This document shows positions 1,448 through 9,350 of a stretch of DNA of 64,000 bases, one piece after another (position 1 is the first letter of the stretch; every line of letters starts with the position of its first letter). Where the stretch lies: assembly GCA_009602725.1 (NCBI GenBank), contig WELB01000038.1, positions 60,489 through 124,488 on the forward strand, given 5' to 3'. A model generated the notes under the pieces. That model worked only from the letters and a program-made list of their open reading frames with translations, was not told the origin of the DNA and did not search any database. The DNA is from Spirogloea muscicola. Lineage: Eukaryota > Streptophyta > Zygnematophyceae > Spirogloeales > Spirogloeaceae. Made by a program: the position numbers and the translations under genes.

Positions 1448-2170
1448 TTTTCGTGTGTTTGAAACAAACGAAGGCTAAATGGCCGAGTATAAAGGCAAGC
1501 ACATCTAAAGACCTACATACTCTACAGCAAATTGACCGCTCAGTAACCACGGGTCAAAACATAAAGGTCGCTAATCGATGCCTGAATACTAGATGTCAGA
1601 TACGAAGCCCTTCTGCCACCAACTAGAGCTCGGCCAGCTTTCTGGTGCAAGGCATTAATTAGCCTGAGCACGCTGCAAACAGGCCGAAACACGTCGTCGC
1701 AAGAAAGACAGATATGCAGCTGGCAAGCCCAACTCAGCCGGAAGCACATCTGCACGACGTGTGTAGCCTAGATTGGCAATGTTTTGGAGGAGGGTGTGGA
1801 AACGAGAACCCAGACAACCAAAGACGTCGATTGCCGCTGGCAGGAGCTGATCGCATTGAGGGTAGTCGGAGTAGTGCTGCAGCTTTCTTGTTCTGCAACG
1901 CCCACTGCGTGACCAGCGATGTGTGTTGATGCTGGTCCCTTGTACGCCTCCGTTACAACAACGTCGACCAGGGCCCGTGGTCCTCCACCAGGTTGCACGC
2001 CCACAATGTCTAGTGTGCGGCGATGATGACGTCCCACTTCTGGTCCAGTGGGGGCTACAAATCTCAAGCCCCATGCTAAGGTCGCTAAGTAACAGTGTGA
2101 CATTAGTAGAAAGGGGGCGATGGCTCTTGAAAAGTCAGCCCACAACAAAATTGGACGTTTTCAACGAGCT
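1448..2170 (-). mobile_element. 5'-truncated LINE copy, antisense
   Basis: Read on the minus strand this gives the C-terminal part of a non-LTR retrotransposon ORF2. Recognisable blocks are DIVGVQPGGGPRALVDVVVT, a TFGCLG-like block (here DVFGCLGSRFHTLL), LGLPAAYLSFLRRRV, and the terminal SDLYVLTRGY-stop at about 1540. The reading frame shifts at least once, so the copy is dead. The 3' tail (ttcgtgtgtttgaaac on the plus strand) lies at about 1452. The layout (conserved Pro-Phe-Ala/Thr-Phe-Gly-type block close to the C-terminus) is typical of plant and algal LINE ORF2 ends. Confidence 0.7.
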
Positions 2171-2239: not shown

Positions 2240-2385
2240 CTGTTCAGGTATGGGCGAGCCCTTTCTTCTTTGTACTTGGCCTTTGGCCTTCGTTTGGTCC
2301 TCAGTTCCACCCTCTCCTTCAGAATATGCCAATCTAGGCTATGCACGTCGTGCAGATATGCTTCCGGCTGAGATGGGTGTCGTGC
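2240..2385 (+). mobile_element. Composite LINE scraps
   Basis: Small sense pieces of the same LINE family: a 'gggcgagccctttcttct' UTR word, then a coding scrap translating as NLGYARRADMLPAEMG, which matches the block just upstream of LPAAYLSFLRRRV in better copies at 8.1-8.4 kb. No intact frame. Confidence 0.5.
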
Positions 2386-2643
2386 CATATAGTGTCGATT
2401 GCCAGGGAATGTCGATAGGGCAGAGTTGTAAAGAATACAGGTGACATTTCCAAGTCCGCGTGGTTGGCAACGTCCGCATTATGAGAGAAAACGAAAAAGC
2501 TACGGAAAAGCGAGAAACGAAAGTATCTGGCTAAATAGATGTCAGCGCGATAGAATCATCCTGAAAACTGGAGCTTGTGATGGATGAGTGGCTAATTACC
2601 CCCCCCCAACTATGAGTCCTGACCAGGTTGAAGAGTTGGGTCA

Positions 2644-3171
2644 TCAGCCATACAGGCATCGATCGCAGAACCAATCATCGGAAGGTATGCTTGTGAGTGG
2701 TGGCGTAAGACAATGTAAATGCCATCCTTTGTTACAAGTGGAACACAACAGCATTGTTGCTGATTGGTCTTCGCGATGACAAATTTCACATGATAAGTGT
2801 GCGGAGACCCACTGTTGAGTAGGATCTATTGTGGGATCAATATTAGTAAGGTGACAGGGTGTAATATTCTGAATATGGTCTGAAATCTCCCTGCCACACG
2901 AGCCTTGCAAACGAACAACGCCTGAGTTGTTCTTGCCAACAACCTTGTATATAAACGGACCTGTAGAAGCATCCAGTGCATCTTGAGGTTTCACCCGAAG
3001 ATAGACATAGTCGTTGACAGATACTGTTGGATGTTTGGCTTGATATCGACCACTTCGAATGGTAGCATAGCGCTGCGTGTCGCGATGCTGAGCAATGCGT
3101 AAATTGTCCAACGCAAGGGGCATATGACGTTTGAATAAGTTGCCACGTTCGGTACAAACTTTGAGCCACAT
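2644..3171 (-). mobile_element. Integrase C-terminal region with PHD finger (part of the relic)
   Basis: The end of the element's coding region. A gypsy integrase C-terminal beta domain (KHPTVSVNDYVYLRVKP, then GPFIYKVVGKN) is followed, about 50 residues on, by a C4HC3 PHD finger. The finger has CEIC, LLCSTC, the GWHLHC step, then DWFCDRC and the end of the frame. The PHD finger takes the place where chromoviruses carry a chromodomain. PHD fingers commonly read histone H3 tails, so a targeting role is a natural inference. No function is claimed for this copy. Confidence 0.8.
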
Positions 3172-6100
3172 GTCTGGATCATCGAGATTGACTATCTCTG
3201 TGGAAACAGGACCAAGACTAATGGGAATTACGGGATGACGTCCATAAAGTAGAAACTACGGACTATAAGCCGATAGAGAAGCCTGTTTGGACATCCTGTA
3301 ACCCATTATAAGCCATGGCAAAAATCTGTCCCATCTCTCCGAACCCTTGCGAAGGGCATATTTTGTGAGGCCACGTTTGATAGTTTGAACCATGCGTTCG
3401 GCCAAAACATCAGCTTGGGGATGGTCTCTTGATGTAAGCCGATGATCAATAAAAGACTGATCCAAGAGGCGCTGGAAGTCACCTTGAAATTCAGTGCCCT
3501 GGTCAGTGAGCACTTCAGCACAAGCCCCAAACCGTGACAACACCTGGTCCATAAAAGCTTCTTTGACATGTATGCTGGATTTGTTGGGAATGATGACCAC
3601 TTCCACCCATTTGGTGAAGTGCTCAATCATAATGAGGACGTAAGGTCTGGCATTTCCCTGTTTGAGAGGACCAGCCAAGTCTAAACTCCACCGATAGAAC
3701 AGTCCTTGTATAGGCAAAGGGTGAAGTTGAGGTGATTTCAACGAAAAAGTGTTGCGAATTCTATCACATTCTTCACATTGAGATAAAACGTGTTTCACCA
3801 TATCTGTAAGACCAGACCACCAGTATTTCGTGACTAGTAAACTGATGGTTTTCTTAATGCCGTAGTGTCCAAGTGATGTATGAACATCGTGCACTAATTT
3901 GTGTCGCACCGCTGGAGGTGGAACCATTGGATTGCCGTATTCTACATCAGGTTTGAACAACTGTGATTCCTTCCACACATAACGACGGGCTCGGTGTTTG
4001 ATTCGATCCTTCTGCATGGTAGTGGAGCCAACAGGATATATGCCAGTTTGCAGGTATTGCAGACCTGGTGCATCCAACCAGACGTCTTTGGAAAACAAAT
4101 CATCATTACACACTTCAAGAGCGCCTACTGAATGATCATCATGTGTAGATGTCGTAAGAGTATGAGCCAATCGATAGCGAAACATGGGTTTATCACAGAT
4201 GAACATGTGAGCAATTTGTTCGGGAATAGCATCAGAAGTTGGGTTTCGACTGAGAGCATCTGCATCCATATTCTGAAGACCAGGACGGTGAACAATCTTG
4301 AAATCATACTCTTGCAGTTGAAGAGCCCAGCGTGCTATATTTCCTGTAAGTTTATCAGTTGTCAACAGCCATTGTAAAGGCTGATGATCGGTAACCAATT
4401 GAAACGAGCGTCCATGTAGGTACGGTCGGAAAAGTGTGATGGCCCACATGGCAGCCAAACATTCTCCATGATATGCAGAATAGTTTTGCTGTGCAGAATT
4501 GTTACTGCAACTCGCATAAGCGATAACATATTGGTGGTTATCCTCATCACGCTGAGTCAAGACAGCACCCATCCCAACTTTGCTCCAATCGGTATGTAGA
4601 TAAAATAGTTTGTCATAATCAGGATGTCTCAGGACCGGAGCTTGAGTGAGAGCCTGTTTAAGCTGATTGAATGCGTCGTGACGAGAAGTGGTCCACTGCC
4701 ATGGTGCATCCCTTTGAGCAGATCATTCAGAGGCCTAGCTATGGAACTGAAATTCTGGATGAATCTGCGATAATAGCTGGCCAAACCAAGGAAGGATCGC
4801 AACGATTTAAGATTAGTTGGCGAAGGAATGTCAAGAACGGCTTACACATTGGCAGCTTGTGGAGACAAACCCTTGTCTGAAATTTGGTGCCCCAAATAGG
4901 TAGCTTCAGACAAACCAAAACGGCATTTGCCTGGGTGACATCTGAGTCCAGCCTCCTGTACTGTATCAAGCACAACTGCGACATGGTTCAGATGTTCTGC
5001 AAAGCTCTTACTGAACACTAGAATATCGTCGATGTAACAACGTGCAAATGGAACGTGTCTCAATACTATGTCCATAACGCGCTGATATATAATGGGGGCA
5101 TTTTTAAGACCGAAAGGCATTTTGATCCATTCATAGAGAACTCCAACACCTTCACGAACACCCCAGAAAGCAGTCTTATGCCTGTCTCAGGCTCAATATC
5201 TATCTGGTTGAATCCCTGCCTAAGATCTAACACTGAAAAGATCTTACTGTCCCCCACACAAGCAAAAATCTGTTCGGGAGTAGGCATAGGATATCGATCA
5301 AGAGGTGTGGACATGTTGAGTTGGCGGTAATCACCACACATTCTCTTATCTGTGTAATTGCCAAACTCATCTTTCTTGGCTGGGAGAACGGTTGGTGCAG
5401 CATAGGCACTGTGAGAAATTTGTATCAACCCAATGGCTAACAATTCCTGGCATTTGTTATCTATGAAGTCATTATCCGCTTTAGATAATGGATACCGTTG
5501 TCGGAATATAGGATGTTCATGTATAAGCTGAATTTGGAATTTGGAACCAACATAGGTTCCCATATCAGCCGATGAAAAAGCAAAAGAGGTCAATTTAGCA
5601 TTCAACAATTTGACCATACAAGCATTGTCTTCTTCAGTCAAATCAGAACCAAGCTGCCACTGGTACCCTGTCAAAGAATGGCAAACTTGTATGACTGGCT
5701 GTGATTGTCAGAAGTCTGAGGCATTTCGAACACAGTATAACCGGAAAGGTCCCGGGATGGTTCGAGTGAAGGGGACAACAATTTTCCAGGAACCCAACTC
5801 CCGAGAGAGGGAAAGGGCCATGGGTTATGAACCTGGAGAGATAACCTTACTTCATCACTCGTTCAAGACGCATGTCAAACTTACCGGACAGGCGTTTGAC
5901 GCCAATTCCATGTCTTGGATGTTCGGTGTAACTAATGCCATTCAGATTAAGAAGAGGGTCAAGCAGCAGCAGTTCCACAATGACCCTCACAGCATCTCTG
6001 AATTGGACATTAGCCTCTTGCACTTATTTGACCCTGTTGATGACGACAGGGCAGACTTCTGACAATCACAGCCAGTCATACAAGTTTGCCATTCTTTGAC

Positions 6101-6329
6101 AGGGTACCAGTGGCAGCTTGGTTCTGATTTGACTGAAGAAGACAATGCTTGTATGGTCAAATTGTTGAATGCTAAATTGACCTCTTTTGCTTTTTCATCG
6201 GCTGATTTGGAACCTATGTTGGTTCCAAATTCCAAATTCAGCTTATACATGAACGTCCTATATTCCGACAACGGTATCCATATCCATTATCTAAAGTGGA
6301 GAATGACTTCATAGATAACAAATGCCAGG

Positions 6330-7370
6330 ACTCCACTGTTGCCATTAAGGTCGGGAAGGTGACGCGTTCCATACCTTGCTCATTGAAAGAGTGATCATAC
6401 TTGGATCCGTACACTGCCATAGGCTCTCTGCCAGCATCTAGTGCCATGTAGGCAAAGAGTCCAGGAGGCCGCTTTTGGATGTCAATACAACGCTGCAACA
6501 TCTTGGCCGGGGCCAAATTTGTCCAATGAACTCTCCTGCGATCTGCAAGGGAGCCAACGAAGGCTGCATCGATGATTGTAGGAGGCCCGAGGATGTCGCA
6601 TACTGTGGTGAAAGCAGACCGCGCTGCAGCTTTATTTTCGCGTGGTTCGACGCTTTCAATAATATAACCAATTGGTTGGGGCTGCCTTGCTTGTAGTGCG
6701 TGCATCGATTTGACCATTGGTATGAAGAGTGCTGTGTCCTTCTGAGCAAAGCCCAGGCCTCTGGTCATGCCACTGAAACCCTGGCAAGGAAAACCTGCCA
6801 CGATCAAATCAATTGGAGGAAGACGGCGCAGTACCCCTGGCTGGACTGCCTGGTTGATATCTGGTGGCAACATTGTATCCCATTTCTCAAAAGTAGCAGC
6901 ATTGATCAAGGTTGGATATTGTTGAAGCAGGAAGTTGATGTGGTGCTGTGCGGTCTCATGGGCTTCCTTGTCAACGTCACAGTAGAAGTATTTTGCCACT
7001 TTGATATGGTTCTGGCACACCGCCTTCAATCCATTTGCAGTAACCACCGAATAGCTCCACCAACACTATGCCTTCCTCAGGTAGATTCCAGTCAATTACC
7101 CCGTGGTAGAATACTCCCATCTGATCCACGAGTTTGGTACCAGCATTTGAGTGTACAACTGGAGGCTTCGCCTGCAAGGTTTCTTCATCCCACGCTTGGT
7201 CCGCTCTCATGTGGGCCACCAAAGGAAAACATAGACGTGCAGCGCGGATCATATTGTGATTTTTGGTGGCCTGCAGCTCCTCCCAATATGTCCGAGGCAT
7301 GCCCATATTCCGTATTGGACGAATGAGCCCTGCTGGCTGATTGGCTTGGTCTGGATCGAAGACAACCATG
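6330..7370 (-). mobile_element. C5 cytosine-methyltransferase domain of the gypsy relic
   Basis: Minus-strand translation shows the classical C5-MTase motif order. Motif I is IVLVELFGG (S-adenosylmethionine binding). It is followed by a CDVDKEA acidic motif, motif IV LIVAGFPCQGFSG (catalytic Cys of PCQ), a motif VI region (IIESVEPREN) and motif VIII-like ADRRRVHW. A stretch resembling the family's C-terminal motifs occurs in the rearranged middle of the element. The motif VI sequence is unusual (ESVEP rather than the common ENV). The methyltransferase sits 5' of the RT in the same orientation, which argues that it is part of the element and not a host gene interrupted by it. It is a relic and not expected to make protein. 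Confidence 0.8.
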
Positions 7371-7483
7371 TCCCAGGTTCTCTTCGGACGATCTGAAGGT
7401 GAATTCTACTCGGTCCTGTAAACGAGTGGGTGGTAAGACACCAAGCAATTAACAGTAATATATGAAACGGAATTGGTATCAAT

Positions 7484-7860
7484 TAGAGACTGCGAAGAGT
7501 CTTGTTCACAGTAGCCGATGGTCTCGGTGCCAAGTGCCGGTAACTGGTAACCGAAAGTATCCAGTGCCGGTAACCCGGTAACAGAGTACGCCCGATTAGG
7601 GACTTAGTGCTCTATTTGTACACGCCCTATTCGGGACTTTCGTTAGTACGTGCAAGAATGCCCACAATGCAACCAATGCATATGGTGCTGATGTAAGCAC
7701 CACAATACGAACGTCTTCCGAGACAACGCTCGGAGTGCCTGATAGAGCAGGAACAAACGCGCCGGTTTACGTACCGGTGGACGGAGTTCTCCGGTAGATG
7801 GCTCCTCAAGGGCAGATCCGGTCCTTCACGCCTACCCGTGCCTTTTGGCACGGCCAACGC
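7484..7860. repeat. Spacer with imperfect short tandem repeats
   Basis: Two pairs of imperfect direct repeats are visible: cagtgccggtaac words at about 36-bp spacing near 7523-7585, and 'cgccc(g/t)att(a/c)gggact' words about 40 bp apart near 7588-7640. No gene or recognised element was seen. It lies between the gypsy relic and the next LINE copy. Confidence 0.4.
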
Positions 7861-8020
7861 GCGCTCGATGCCCGCTGATGTATCAGCGGGAACGGCGGCA
7901 GCGGCAGCGGCAGCGGCAGCGACGACGGCAGGAGCGACGACGACAGCGGTGGCGGTGGTGGCGGAGAAATCGGCTCAGGGAAGGAGACAGGACCGAGTAG
8001 AACTACTCGGTCCTAGCCCT
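7860..8020 (+). other. GCA/GCG-rich stretch and 26-bp palindrome
   Basis: An Ala-rich (gcggca)n segment, then a perfect inverted repeat at 7989-8014 (AGGACCGAGTAG, 2-nt spacer, CTACTCGGTCCT). The right arm word also occurs at 7406-7417. The segment between could be a small inverted-repeat element, but no target duplication was found. Confidence 0.35.
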
Positions 8021-8535
8021 CCGCTCTTTCCGCTCTTTCCGCTTCCACACACATTGCTGGCCACGCAGTGGGAGGTGCTGAGCAGAAAAAGCTCCGACAC
8101 TACTCAGACTACCCCCGCAGTGACCACCTCCCGGCCGCAATCGACACTTTCGGCTGCTTGGGTCCTCGCTTCCATACCCTACTCGAGGACATAGCGAGTC
8201 TGGGATATGCACGACGCGAGGATATGCTCCCAGCCCAGATGGGTATGCCGGCAGCCTATCTGTCATTTCTGCGACGTCGAGTGTCAACCTGTCTGCAACG
8301 AGCTCAGGCGTATGCTCTGCATCAGAAAGCTGGTCGAGCCTTAGCTGCTGGCACAAGAGCTAGTCAATTGCCGTCCGGTATTCGAGCGTCAGCTAGCGAC
8401 CTCTATGTGCTGACTCGTGGTTACTGAGCGGGTCAGCTTAGCAGCAGGTGACGTACATTTGTCCAATATGCTTGCCTTTGTACTTGGCCACACATGGCCT
8501 CCCCATCTCTTAATATACACGCATTTCCCGCTCGC
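8020..8535 (+). mobile_element. 5'-truncated LINE copy, best-preserved ORF2 end
   Basis: The frame 8068-8427 encodes the cleanest ORF2 C-terminus in the window: HYSDYPRSDHLPAAIDTFG, GPRFHTLLEDIASLGYARR, AAYLSFLRRRVSTCLQRAQ, ALHQKAGRALAAGTRA and the terminal SDLYVLTRGY stop. The 3' UTR continues with 'gagcgggtcagcttagcagc', the 'gcctttgtacttggcc' word and 'cctccccatctcttaatata'. It is sheared at the 5' side, so only about the last 120 codons remain. This copy is a good query for collecting the family. Confidence 0.7.
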
Positions 8536-8850
8536 TTATGCCGGTCAGAAAGAATGGCATTGTTTTGAGAGCAGCCGCTTTGGCCTATTTGGCTTTACCC
8601 TCCATCCTCAATCTCAAGGCCAGTGTAGCCCTGAGACCGCTATTGCTGCTCTGCCCCTCCACCCTTAATCCCCAAGGCCAGTGTAGCCTGGGATTGCTAT
8701 TCCCTCACCCTTTCACCTTTACCCGCCGCTGGCCTGGCCGGTACCCGCCTTCGCCCATCAGGGGGGTCATCCCCTTCAGAGGCGGGCCTTAGGGCTTTTC
8801 GGCTTCGCTTTGAGGCCTTTTGAGCGGTACGAGCGGCAAAGGATGGGGAC
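8536..8850. other. Unassigned repeat-rich DNA
   Basis: Contains two near copies of a 'caaggccagtgtagccc/ctg' word (near 8610-8690) embedded in C/T-rich DNA. No frame with a recognisable product. Confidence 0.3.
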
Positions 8851-8851
8851 T

Positions 8852-9045
8852 GCTCACTGATGCCATATCGACGGCGCAGCGGCAGGTCCGCGTTGTGGTT
8901 GAGCGGTTGGGATGGTAGTTGGGGTTGGCTCGCTGATGCCATATCGACGGCTCAGCGGCAGGTTGGCGCTGTGGTTGAGCGGTTGGGATGGTAGGATGAA
9001 GTCCACTTGCCGATGTCGATCGACGGCGCGGCGGCACCTGCTCAC
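8852..9045. repeat. 76-bp tandem repeat
   Basis: Two near-identical 76-bp units start at 8852 and 8928 (gctcactgatgccatatcg versus gctcgctgatgccatatcg, each running through gagcggttgggatggtag). A partial third unit follows at about 9003-9040. Translations are artefacts of the repeat. Confidence 0.7.
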
Positions 9046-9194
9046 CTACCTGACCGGAGCCGAGTTGGAGGTGCCGAGATTGCGAATCCTGCGAATCCTG
9101 GTCCACATTAATGGATAGGTGACGTGCCTTTAATGTCCACGGGTGCAGCCACCTCACTTGCCTTGTCAGACCGACACGAATAAGCCACCGACGG

Positions 9195-9350
9195 GATATC
9201 TCATGACTGGGCTTGCCAGCTGCATATCGGTCATTCTTGCGACAACGAGTGTCGGCCTGTTTGCAACGTGCTCAGGCTCACGCTTTAAACCAGAAAGCTG
9301 GGCGAGCTTTAGTTGGTGGCAGAAGGGCTTCGACTTGATACTGTAGCCGC
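9195..9350 (+). mobile_element. LINE coding scrap
   Basis: Translates in one frame to LGLPAAYRSFLRQRVSAC, LQRAQAHALNQKAGRAL and VGGRRAST, matching the LINE ORF2 C-terminus seen at 1.6-2.1 and 8.2-8.4 kb. No terminal TRGY was found. Confidence 0.6.

Follow-up and report, generated by a model that had tools for sequence, protein, structure and literature searches.

To our knowledge, it is still an open question what leads a selfish element to encode an enzyme for laying down a silencing mark, and one locus in the window, that is, the whole stretch of 64,000 nucleotides analyzed here, raises this question. Positions 2378–9207 on the minus strand were found to be one broken Ty3/Gypsy-type element, in which the reverse transcriptase (RT) is preceded by a Dnmt3-type cytosine methyltransferase (MTase) and the integrase is followed by a PHD finger (Table 1). 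The original prediction had placed a gypsy element at 2500..7480; the element was confirmed but its extent was not, since the true ends at 2378 and 9207 are both flanked by the 4-bp target site duplication (TSD) CCCA. The domain search located RT, RNase H, H2C2, and the rve integrase downstream of the MTase and on the same strand, in the predicted order. However, the MTase is not immediately 5′ of RT, as had been supposed, because an inverted duplication separates the two: 5445–5718 and 6052–6330 are inverted copies with 96% identity, and the MTase C-terminus sits on the plus strand in the 333-bp loop that they enclose. The sister copy C59, to which the window element showed 88–97% homology block by block, has the MTase N part, the C part, and RT all in one orientation.

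Table 1. Features of the element copy in the window
Feature	Position	Strand	Basis
Whole element copy, A end (9207) to B end (2378)	2378..9207	-	Terminal sequences GTCATGAG... and ...GCACGACA
TSD, 3′ side of element, CCCA (minus-strand reading)	2374..2377		Flank comparison
3′ terminal region B	2378..2604	-	C59 match to its end 267770; C341 B match 2571–2604; end ...GCACGACA
PHD finger, integrase C-terminus	2644..2811	-	Domain matches
Integrase, H2C2 and rve core; two open pieces, split at 3255/3256	2881..3960	-	ORFs, domain matches
RNase H	4195..4710	-	Domain matches
RT, frameshifted	4713..5707	-	Domain matches
RT N-terminal arm, normal orientation	5445..5718	-	Repeat comparison
MTase C part (motifs IX–X), orientation inverted; loop of inverted duplication	5719..6051	+	Repeat comparison, C59 alignment
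Inverted copy of MTase/RT junction and RT N-terminus	6052..6330	+	In-frame TGA CAA TCA at 6060–6068
MTase N part, motifs I–VIII; one frameshift around 6977–7065	6331..7403	-	ORFs, profile matches, C59 alignment
Deletion junction, gag and protease gone (2.7 kb)	7401..7403		C59 261845–264550 absent here
Nested dispersed repeat, about 500 bp, without counterpart in C59	8027..8527		C59 alignment breaks at 8026/8528
5′ terminal region A	8981..9207	-	C59 match throughout; C341 match 9127–9207
TSD, 5′ side of element, CCCA (minus-strand reading)	9208..9211		Flank comparison

In the MTase N part of the window copy, we found PCQGFS, ESV, and RRRVHWTNL, which we take to be motifs IV, VI, and VIII; the motif names in this part were assigned from general knowledge. 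The profile search matched PF00145 to 6238–7065 on the minus strand (E=8.7e-7), and motif I (ELFGG) lies in an overlapping frame, 6977–7405, other than that of the PF00145 match, and the MTase is therefore frameshifted. Motif VI reads ENV in C59. With gag and protease deleted, several frames broken, motif VI changed to ESV, and the MTase C-terminus inverted, the window copy is dead, in agreement with its earlier description as a broken fossil. That description mentioned neither the inverted duplication nor the leaky stop (see below), and the PHD finger and the true ends were likewise missing from it. The nested repeat at 8027–8527 is also the target sequence of the C341 element.

The class of the element was examined by domains, ends, and repeats. 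RT, RNase H, and an integrase with H2C2 and the rve core follow one another as in Ty3/Gypsy elements, and a gag zinc knuckle and an aspartyl protease were found upstream in relatives, both being deleted in the window copy; the protease scored below the Pfam cut-off throughout, and the zinc knuckle exceeded it in C134 only. The ends are of the TG..CA type (TGTC..GACA, less the initial T in the window copy), and the TSDs are 4 bp long: ACGT (with an empty site), CCCA, GAAG, GAGT, and GCGC, with an ambiguous CTGC/CCGC in C95. No pair of identical LTRs enclosing the coding region was found in the copies compared (C59, the window copy, C341, and C2). C59 and the window copy have the structure A-coding-B without terminal repeats, and C341 and C2 have A-coding-B-A-B; among the 43 matches listed, with 40 of 200 candidates scored, C341 alone spanned the B-A junction. 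Because an identical LTR pair is lacking, the element is filed as Gypsy-type by its enzymes and not as a canonical LTR element. DIRS elements, defined by a tyrosine recombinase and no target duplication, were ruled out by the rve integrase and the TSDs. The domain search of the C2 copy yielded no chromodomain match and a PHD finger instead. We regard this anatomy, and the assignment to a Gypsy-type family with the MTase in its polyprotein, as almost certain.

To place the window copy in its family, the 153-Mb host assembly was searched. Plastid psaB and the pyruvate dehydrogenase E1-beta gene were the two markers by which the host was assigned to the streptophyte green algae. About 102 MTase loci were obtained, an approximate number derived from 150 of 153 matches with matches up to 3 kb apart joined. 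Of 64 RNase H-integrase loci, 25 were preceded by an MTase match on their own strand at a distance of no more than 7 kb, against a random expectation of about 0.15 of 64, ruling out adjacency by chance. The remaining 39 loci, many of them fragments, had no such match, and MTase-free relatives may exist. Among 30 loci cut out around the MTase, 12 showed protease, MTase, and RT in a row on one strand; 15, the window aside, had neither this row nor MTase-RT, being fragments, palindromes, or, in C157, a copy that had lost RT. Many dispersed copies adjoining a gypsy RT had been named beforehand as the supporting sign, and this is what the search returned. The fuller copies are collinear in the order gag-protease-MTase-RT-RNase H-integrase-PHD; C2 and C341 run from gag through PHD, and the frames of C2 are open on either side of the stop between MTase and RT. 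In C17, whose RT is close to that of C2, gag-PR-RT is present and the MTase is not; the MTase can thus be lost, at least from single copies. The MTase and RT trees agreed where resolved: both contain a C341/C48/C59/window group, a C134-C351 pair, and a C59-window pair, and both set apart C326 and P0001–P0004. That a host DNMT gene came to lie by chance beside a retrotransposon had in its favor the single window alone, and it is refuted by the dispersal over about 102 loci, the recurrence of the MTase between protease and RT at 12 of the 30 loci cut out, and the trees, concordant where resolved, so that its probability is virtually nil. We conclude that a streptophyte green alga harbors a multi-copy Ty3/Gypsy-type family of which a Dnmt3-type C5 MTase is a regular polyprotein part. 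Palindromes were seen at 18 of 102 MTase loci and 2 of 64 RNase H-integrase loci (Fisher P=0.006), a comparison that is not clean because the control search scored 88 of 812 candidates, as opposed to 150 of 228 in the MTase search, and under-samples short rearranged pieces.

The best PDB profile match of the MTase was DNMT3A (4.5e-21), ahead of HhaI (2.4e-10), DRM2 (1.9e-8), and DNMT2 (1.2e-4), and all 50 matches listed in a fold search with the predicted model of the relative P0006 (pLDDT 80) were DNMT3. By sequence profile and by this predicted fold, the MTase is of the Dnmt3 type. With the single C2 sequence, M.HhaI scored above DNMT3A. Across 12 aligned MTases, including four relatives, neither the catalytic Cys nor EN in motif VI varied, and dN/dS was 0.158–0.282 in five close pairs, values being reported for 11 of 66 pairs (pS under 0.72) and measured partly along dead lineages. 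The MTase is predicted to be active in working copies with good probability.

The MTase and RT are parted by an in-frame stop in a TMV-type leaky context, TAG/TGA-CAA-YYA. The exact signal [TAG|TGA]CAAYYA was present in 15 of 19 genome copies from divergent groups; the stop was TAG in nine copies, TGA in eight, and TAA in none. The codon after CAA varies in its amino acid (L, S, or P; R in C341) and keeps A as its last base. As background, the window contains 3305 TAG/TGA sites, of which 16 are followed by CARYYA. L062, an element from another assembly, has TAG CAA TCA at the MTase/RT junction with frames open on both sides; it is one of 44 matches in prokaryote genomes, the remaining 43 being weaker and mostly partial. 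Ordinary decay of old copies would fit the other stops present in many copies and the four of 19 copies that depart from the signal (C134, which has the sense codon TAC in place of the stop, C1, C341, and C269). Decay is nevertheless very improbable given the constant position, the restriction to TAG and TGA, the conservation of CAAYYA across divergent groups, its recurrence in L062, and the open frames flanking the stop in C2 and L062. Functional readthrough is thus predicted, from these sequence patterns, to be very likely. The hexanucleotide is identical to that of TMV-type UAG-CARYYA readthrough; the difference from TMV is that the stop sits in a retrotransposon and parts Gag-PR-MTase from RT. 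CARYYA is reported to be about as effective after UGA as after UAG, and far more effective after either than after UAA (PMC4132726), a preference matched by the TAG/TGA-only stops of the element; in plants, UGA and UAA placed in the TMV context are both described as weaker than UAG (PMC2754532). No earlier account of a leaky stop between MTase and RT was found in the accessible text of the literature covered, including PMC5890265 (main text), PMC6338049, PMC12344493, PMC11244446, PMC4877394, and PMC1781420, and the feature is new as far as searched.

The family order is therefore gag - protease - MTase - [leaky stop] - RT - RNase H - integrase - PHD. Since the MTase precedes the leaky stop, it would be made on the Gag side and in excess over RT, which suggests that the enzyme is produced in larger amounts than the copying machinery of the element. 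Most ribosomes would stop after the MTase to give Gag-PR-MTase, and a minority would read through UAG/UGA-CAAYYA and add RT-RH-IN-PHD. The MTase, at Gag-like levels, would probably be packaged in the particle and could methylate freshly made double-stranded cDNA ahead of integration or during it; the PHD finger, which resembles readers of H3K4me0, may steer integration to silent chromatin, so that the element would arrive already marked silent. We give this explanation as a whole, comprising the family anatomy, readthrough, and a packaged self-methylating MTase, a probability of about 80%. The role of the MTase in methylating its own cDNA is by itself put forward tentatively, at somewhat short of even odds. 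A fuller version seems doubtful: a particle-borne MTase in Gag stoichiometry, with the leaky stop conserved between organisms, every cDNA methylated in the particle, the PHD finger directing integration to H3K4-unmethylated chromatin, self-silencing as a persistence strategy, and the MTase inherited vertically with the element through its change of place. Alternatively, the MTase might target host DNA or rival elements in trans and not the element's own cDNA, for instance by silencing competitors or blunting host defense. Purifying selection points to a useful enzyme and not to its substrate, and a product made at Gag levels could also occur outside the particles; the position next to Gag favors packaging, and we consider action in trans unlikely. 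For the preferred explanation, the conserved leaky stop provides a measurable handle, as it predicts the MTase:RT ratio and the MTase as a particle protein. The changed MTase position in sister elements and the TG..CA-type ends without an ordinary LTR pair raise testable evolutionary questions.

That a Gypsy element of a streptophyte can capture an MTase has already been published for KnitGypsy-Dnmt3 of Klebsormidium nitens (de Mendoza et al. 2018, PMC5890265), and the present family is a new variant of this phenomenon, not the first discovery of capture. The Dnmt3-type enzyme inside a Gypsy polyprotein bears out the expectation of a further case. By the main text of that paper, the two share the Gypsy domain set, the Dnmt3-type MTase, a streptophyte algal host, purifying selection on the MTase (Ka/Ks < 0.2 in KnitGypsy-Dnmt3), and DIRS-like repeats, here the A-coding-B-A-B arrangement of C341 and C2 and not the simpler one of C59 and the window copy. 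Given this likeness, there is nearly an even chance that the window holds another copy of the published family, from Klebsormidium or a near relative, with only the copy being new. In the same main text, however, the MTase is part of the Pol ORF, whereas here it adjoins pol on the Gag-protease side and precedes a conserved in-frame stop; no mention of readthrough, frameshift, target site, or PHD was found in that text. The PHD finger after the integrase, the TG..CA-type ends, and the 4-bp TSD are shown here, in comparison with the published description only. SymbioDIRS-Dnmt3 of Symbiodinium likewise has a Dnmt3-type MTase in a retrotransposon but, as far as described in the main text, uses a tyrosine recombinase (PMC5890265), in contrast to the DDE (rve) integrase and target duplications of the present element.

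In viral contigs scanned with single MTases, no relative was found; 42 viral-contig matches to profile A1 were set aside as MTase pieces only, with no gag, PR, RT, RH, INT, or PHD at E≤1e-4. P0005 and P0008, from ENA/JGI contigs, are partial relatives, and P0001 carries an extra weak C-terminal stretch resembling an N6-adenine MTase. P0001–P0004, a sister lineage also from ENA/JGI contigs, share RT, RNase H, integrase, PHD, and a related Dnmt3-type MTase (29–32% identity to C2), but their MTase lies between RNase H and integrase in one pol frame, whereas that of the host family lies before RT. Chromoviruses are chromodomain Gypsy elements with a histone-reader domain at the integrase C-terminus; the present family shares a reader domain at this place, which is a PHD finger and not a chromodomain.

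A single retroelement copy spans much of one end of the window on the minus strand, and its Pfam domains, namely DNA_methylase (E = 8.7e-7), RVT_1, both RNase H models, Integrase_H2C2, rve, and a PHD finger, lie in this order on one strand. This collinearity of methyltransferase (MTase), RT, RNase H, and integrase bore out the original prediction of a Gypsy relic with its own C5 MTase. The copy has GTCATGAG at one end and GCACGACA at the other, with CCCA flanking both. In an alignment with the copy on host contig C59 (copies are named after their contigs), the matching blocks were 88–97% alike. Relative to C59, 2.7 kb is missing with the loss of gag and protease, a repeat is nested inside the copy, and the MTase C part is inverted between two 96% inverted arms. 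The frames of MTase, RT, and integrase are broken, and motif VI reads ESV, versus ENV in C59. The copy is a fossil, as had also been predicted.

Coordinates of the element, its repeats, and selected MTase loci
Feature	Contig	Positions	Remark
Element copy	window	2378–9207	minus strand
Nested repeat, ~500 bp	window	8027–8527	inside element copy; comparison with C59
Dispersed repeat, ~500 bp	window	1480–2035	
Dispersed repeat, ~500 bp	window	8041–8529	empty copy of C341 target repeat, 81% identical
Dispersed repeat, ~500 bp	window	2296–2377 with 9208–9330	
Both-strand MTase	window	5445–6330	additional to the 18 loci
Both-strand MTase	C183	198853–200362	
Both-strand MTase	C91	239481–242215	
Both-strand MTase	C66	32387–33395	
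Both-strand MTase	C27	335451–336389	
Locus L059	C17	274001–281000	gag, protease, RT
Locus L061	C18	915501–922500	rearranged MTase pieces

A single-sequence search with the C2 MTase placed M.HhaI (1.3e-6) above DNMT3A (6e-5), and a 12-row MTase profile gave DNMT3A 4.5e-21, HhaI 2.4e-10, DRM2 1.9e-8, and DNMT2 1.2e-4. For the predicted structure of P0006, a related MTase (pLDDT 80, pTM 0.84), DNMT3 chains made up all 50 fold-search matches listed. Across the 12 aligned rows, the cysteine of motif IV (PC[QEG] or EC) and the EN of motif VI are invariant. The dN/dS values of 0.168 (C134–C351), 0.158 (C361–C102), 0.231 (C361–C326), 0.246 (C102–C326), and 0.282 (C59–window) show selection on the MTase; those of six more distant pairs (0.31–0.45) carry little weight because they are near synonymous saturation.

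The window MTase peptide gave 153 matches in the assembly (153.1 Mb, 471 contigs), and the 150 matches listed fell into about 102 loci on 75 contigs. Among 30 loci excised around MTase matches, some overlapping one another, protease, MTase, and RT were consecutive on one strand in 12, two further loci had MTase and RT, the window copy showed the set with an inversion, and the remaining 15 were fragments, palindromes, or copies with RT lost. In 25 of 64 RNaseH–integrase loci, an MTase match lay in the same orientation no more than 7 kb upstream (chance expectation, about 0.15 of 64). These counts establish the architecture and multiplicity of the MTase-Gypsy element. The other 39 loci had no such upstream MTase match, and three of them were inspected in detail. 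The C17 locus lacks the MTase, with merely ~450 bp separating protease from RT; its RT is 88–97% identical to that of C2, and its N run (1–1765) lies outside the gag-protease-RT stretch. At least one MTase-free derivative therefore exists. The C18 locus retains MTase pieces, and at C2:712 kb RT and RNaseH were the only parts seen.

In the C18 locus, the gag-protease block runs opposite to RT and the MTase C part, and small inverted repeats of MTase sequence mark each border of the inversion. N runs occur in or beside the copies at L040 (505 bases), L044 (5998), L045 (681), L048 (3161), and L059 (1765). The psaB of the plastid contig scored 1623–1627 bits against its four best PDB chains, all or some of which are moss photosystems; the chains ranked after them reached at most 1594 bits, and chlorophyte chains at most 1524. 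On the plastid contig, a pyruvate dehydrogenase E1-beta gene (odpB), truncated by the locus end, adjoins psaA (best model 312.6 bits, cut-off 321); a passage of PMC1781420 lists odpB among streptophyte plastid genes absent from Chlorophyta. The host is thus most likely a green alga of the streptophyte lineage.

In 18 of the 102 loci, the MTase matched both strands over a distance of 3 kb or less. Eight of these were examined: six held palindromes of 0.9–2.2 kb with arms 88–95% alike, and two held spaced inverted repeats; between loci, the same stretches were mostly 65–86% alike, with different centres. Divergence between the arms is too great for an assembly artefact. The palindromes may have arisen by repeated fold-back duplication, or they may be hairpin loci feeding small-RNA silencing.

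The C341 element starts with TGTCATGAG, ends with GGCACGACA, and has ACGT at each side. Its layout is A-coding-B-GC-A-m-B, where A and B are the 5′ and 3′ terminal regions; the C2 layout likewise includes A-coding-B-A-B, its A copies being 80% alike. C59 and the window copy are A-coding-B, with target site duplications (TSDs) GAAG and CCCA, respectively. Short A-m-B units also carry TSDs (GAGT and GCGC), as solo LTRs would; the C95 flanks differ (CTGC/CCGC). A-m-B may be an LTR equivalent, and A-coding-B may arise via B × B recombination or via cutting of a circle at the B-A joint. The window and C341 elements are inserted in copies of the ~500-bp repeat at sites ~34 bp apart, and an insertion preference for this repeat is possible.

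Four relatives, P0001–P0004 (ENA/JGI), carry RT-RNaseH-MTase-H2C2-integrase-PHD in a single frame, placing the MTase between RNaseH and H2C2/integrase, whereas in C2 it lies upstream of a stop and RT. Unrooted MTase (20 rows) and RT trees (13 rows, five less than half filled, two long branches) concur in a C341/C48/C59/window group and in the pairs C134–C351 and C59–window, and both separate C326 and P0001–P0004 from the remaining genome copies; neither tree resolves where C2 and its kin fall. Two separate captures from similar donors may have occurred; a single capture followed by a shift of place within the polyprotein would be the simplest account. P0001 also contains a weak MethyltransfD12 match below cut-off (residues 2046–2084, E = 0.003) that includes DPFAGSG and SPPF, so its polyprotein may hold a second MTase, of N6-adenine type.

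In C2, the gag-PR-MTase frame (1411 codons) closes with TAG and is followed in the same phase by the RT-PHD frame (1037 codons). Among all 19 retrieved genome copies with a placeable RT start (16 plus three added later), 15 had exactly TAG/TGA-CAA-YYA, and the departures were C341 (TAG CAA CGA), C1 (TGA CGA TCA), C134 (TAC CAA TTA), and C269 (disrupted). The stop was TAG in nine, TGA in eight, and TAA in none; C326 has the signal, though shifted by one base from the RT frame. By comparison, the window contains 3305 TAG/TGA sites, of which only 16 precede CARYYA. The amino acid of the second codon after the stop changes while its final A is kept, so the constraint on this conserved, putatively leaky context looks nucleotide-level.

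An element on contig CADCWO010000201.1 consists of a weak gag, protease, MTase, TAG CAA TCA, and then RT-RNaseH, with identities to C2 of 34–36% (MTase), 50% (RT), and 66% (RNaseH). The contig is binned as an uncultured Synechococcales cyanobacterium (MAG); we take the element to be eukaryotic by its kind, and the bin is therefore probably contaminated.

The MTase would be produced in excess, be packaged, and methylate the cDNA, and the PHD finger would direct chromatin targeting. The best PDB matches of this finger were MLL3, Lid/KDM5, KMT2D, BAZ2B, and CHD4, several of which read H3 unmodified at K4. Dnmt3 capture by a streptophyte Gypsy element is already known, and the abstract of PMC5890265 states that retrotransposon MTases methylate CG sites de novo. 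The part of interest to specialists is the leaky stop, present too in the element of another assembly. CARYYA is essential for tobacco mosaic virus (TMV) readthrough according to PMC2754532; according to PMC4132726, its effect is similar after UGA and UAG and far weaker after UAA. The stop-CARYYA context is common to TMV and the MTase/RT junction, where TMV-type readthrough is predicted from sequence.
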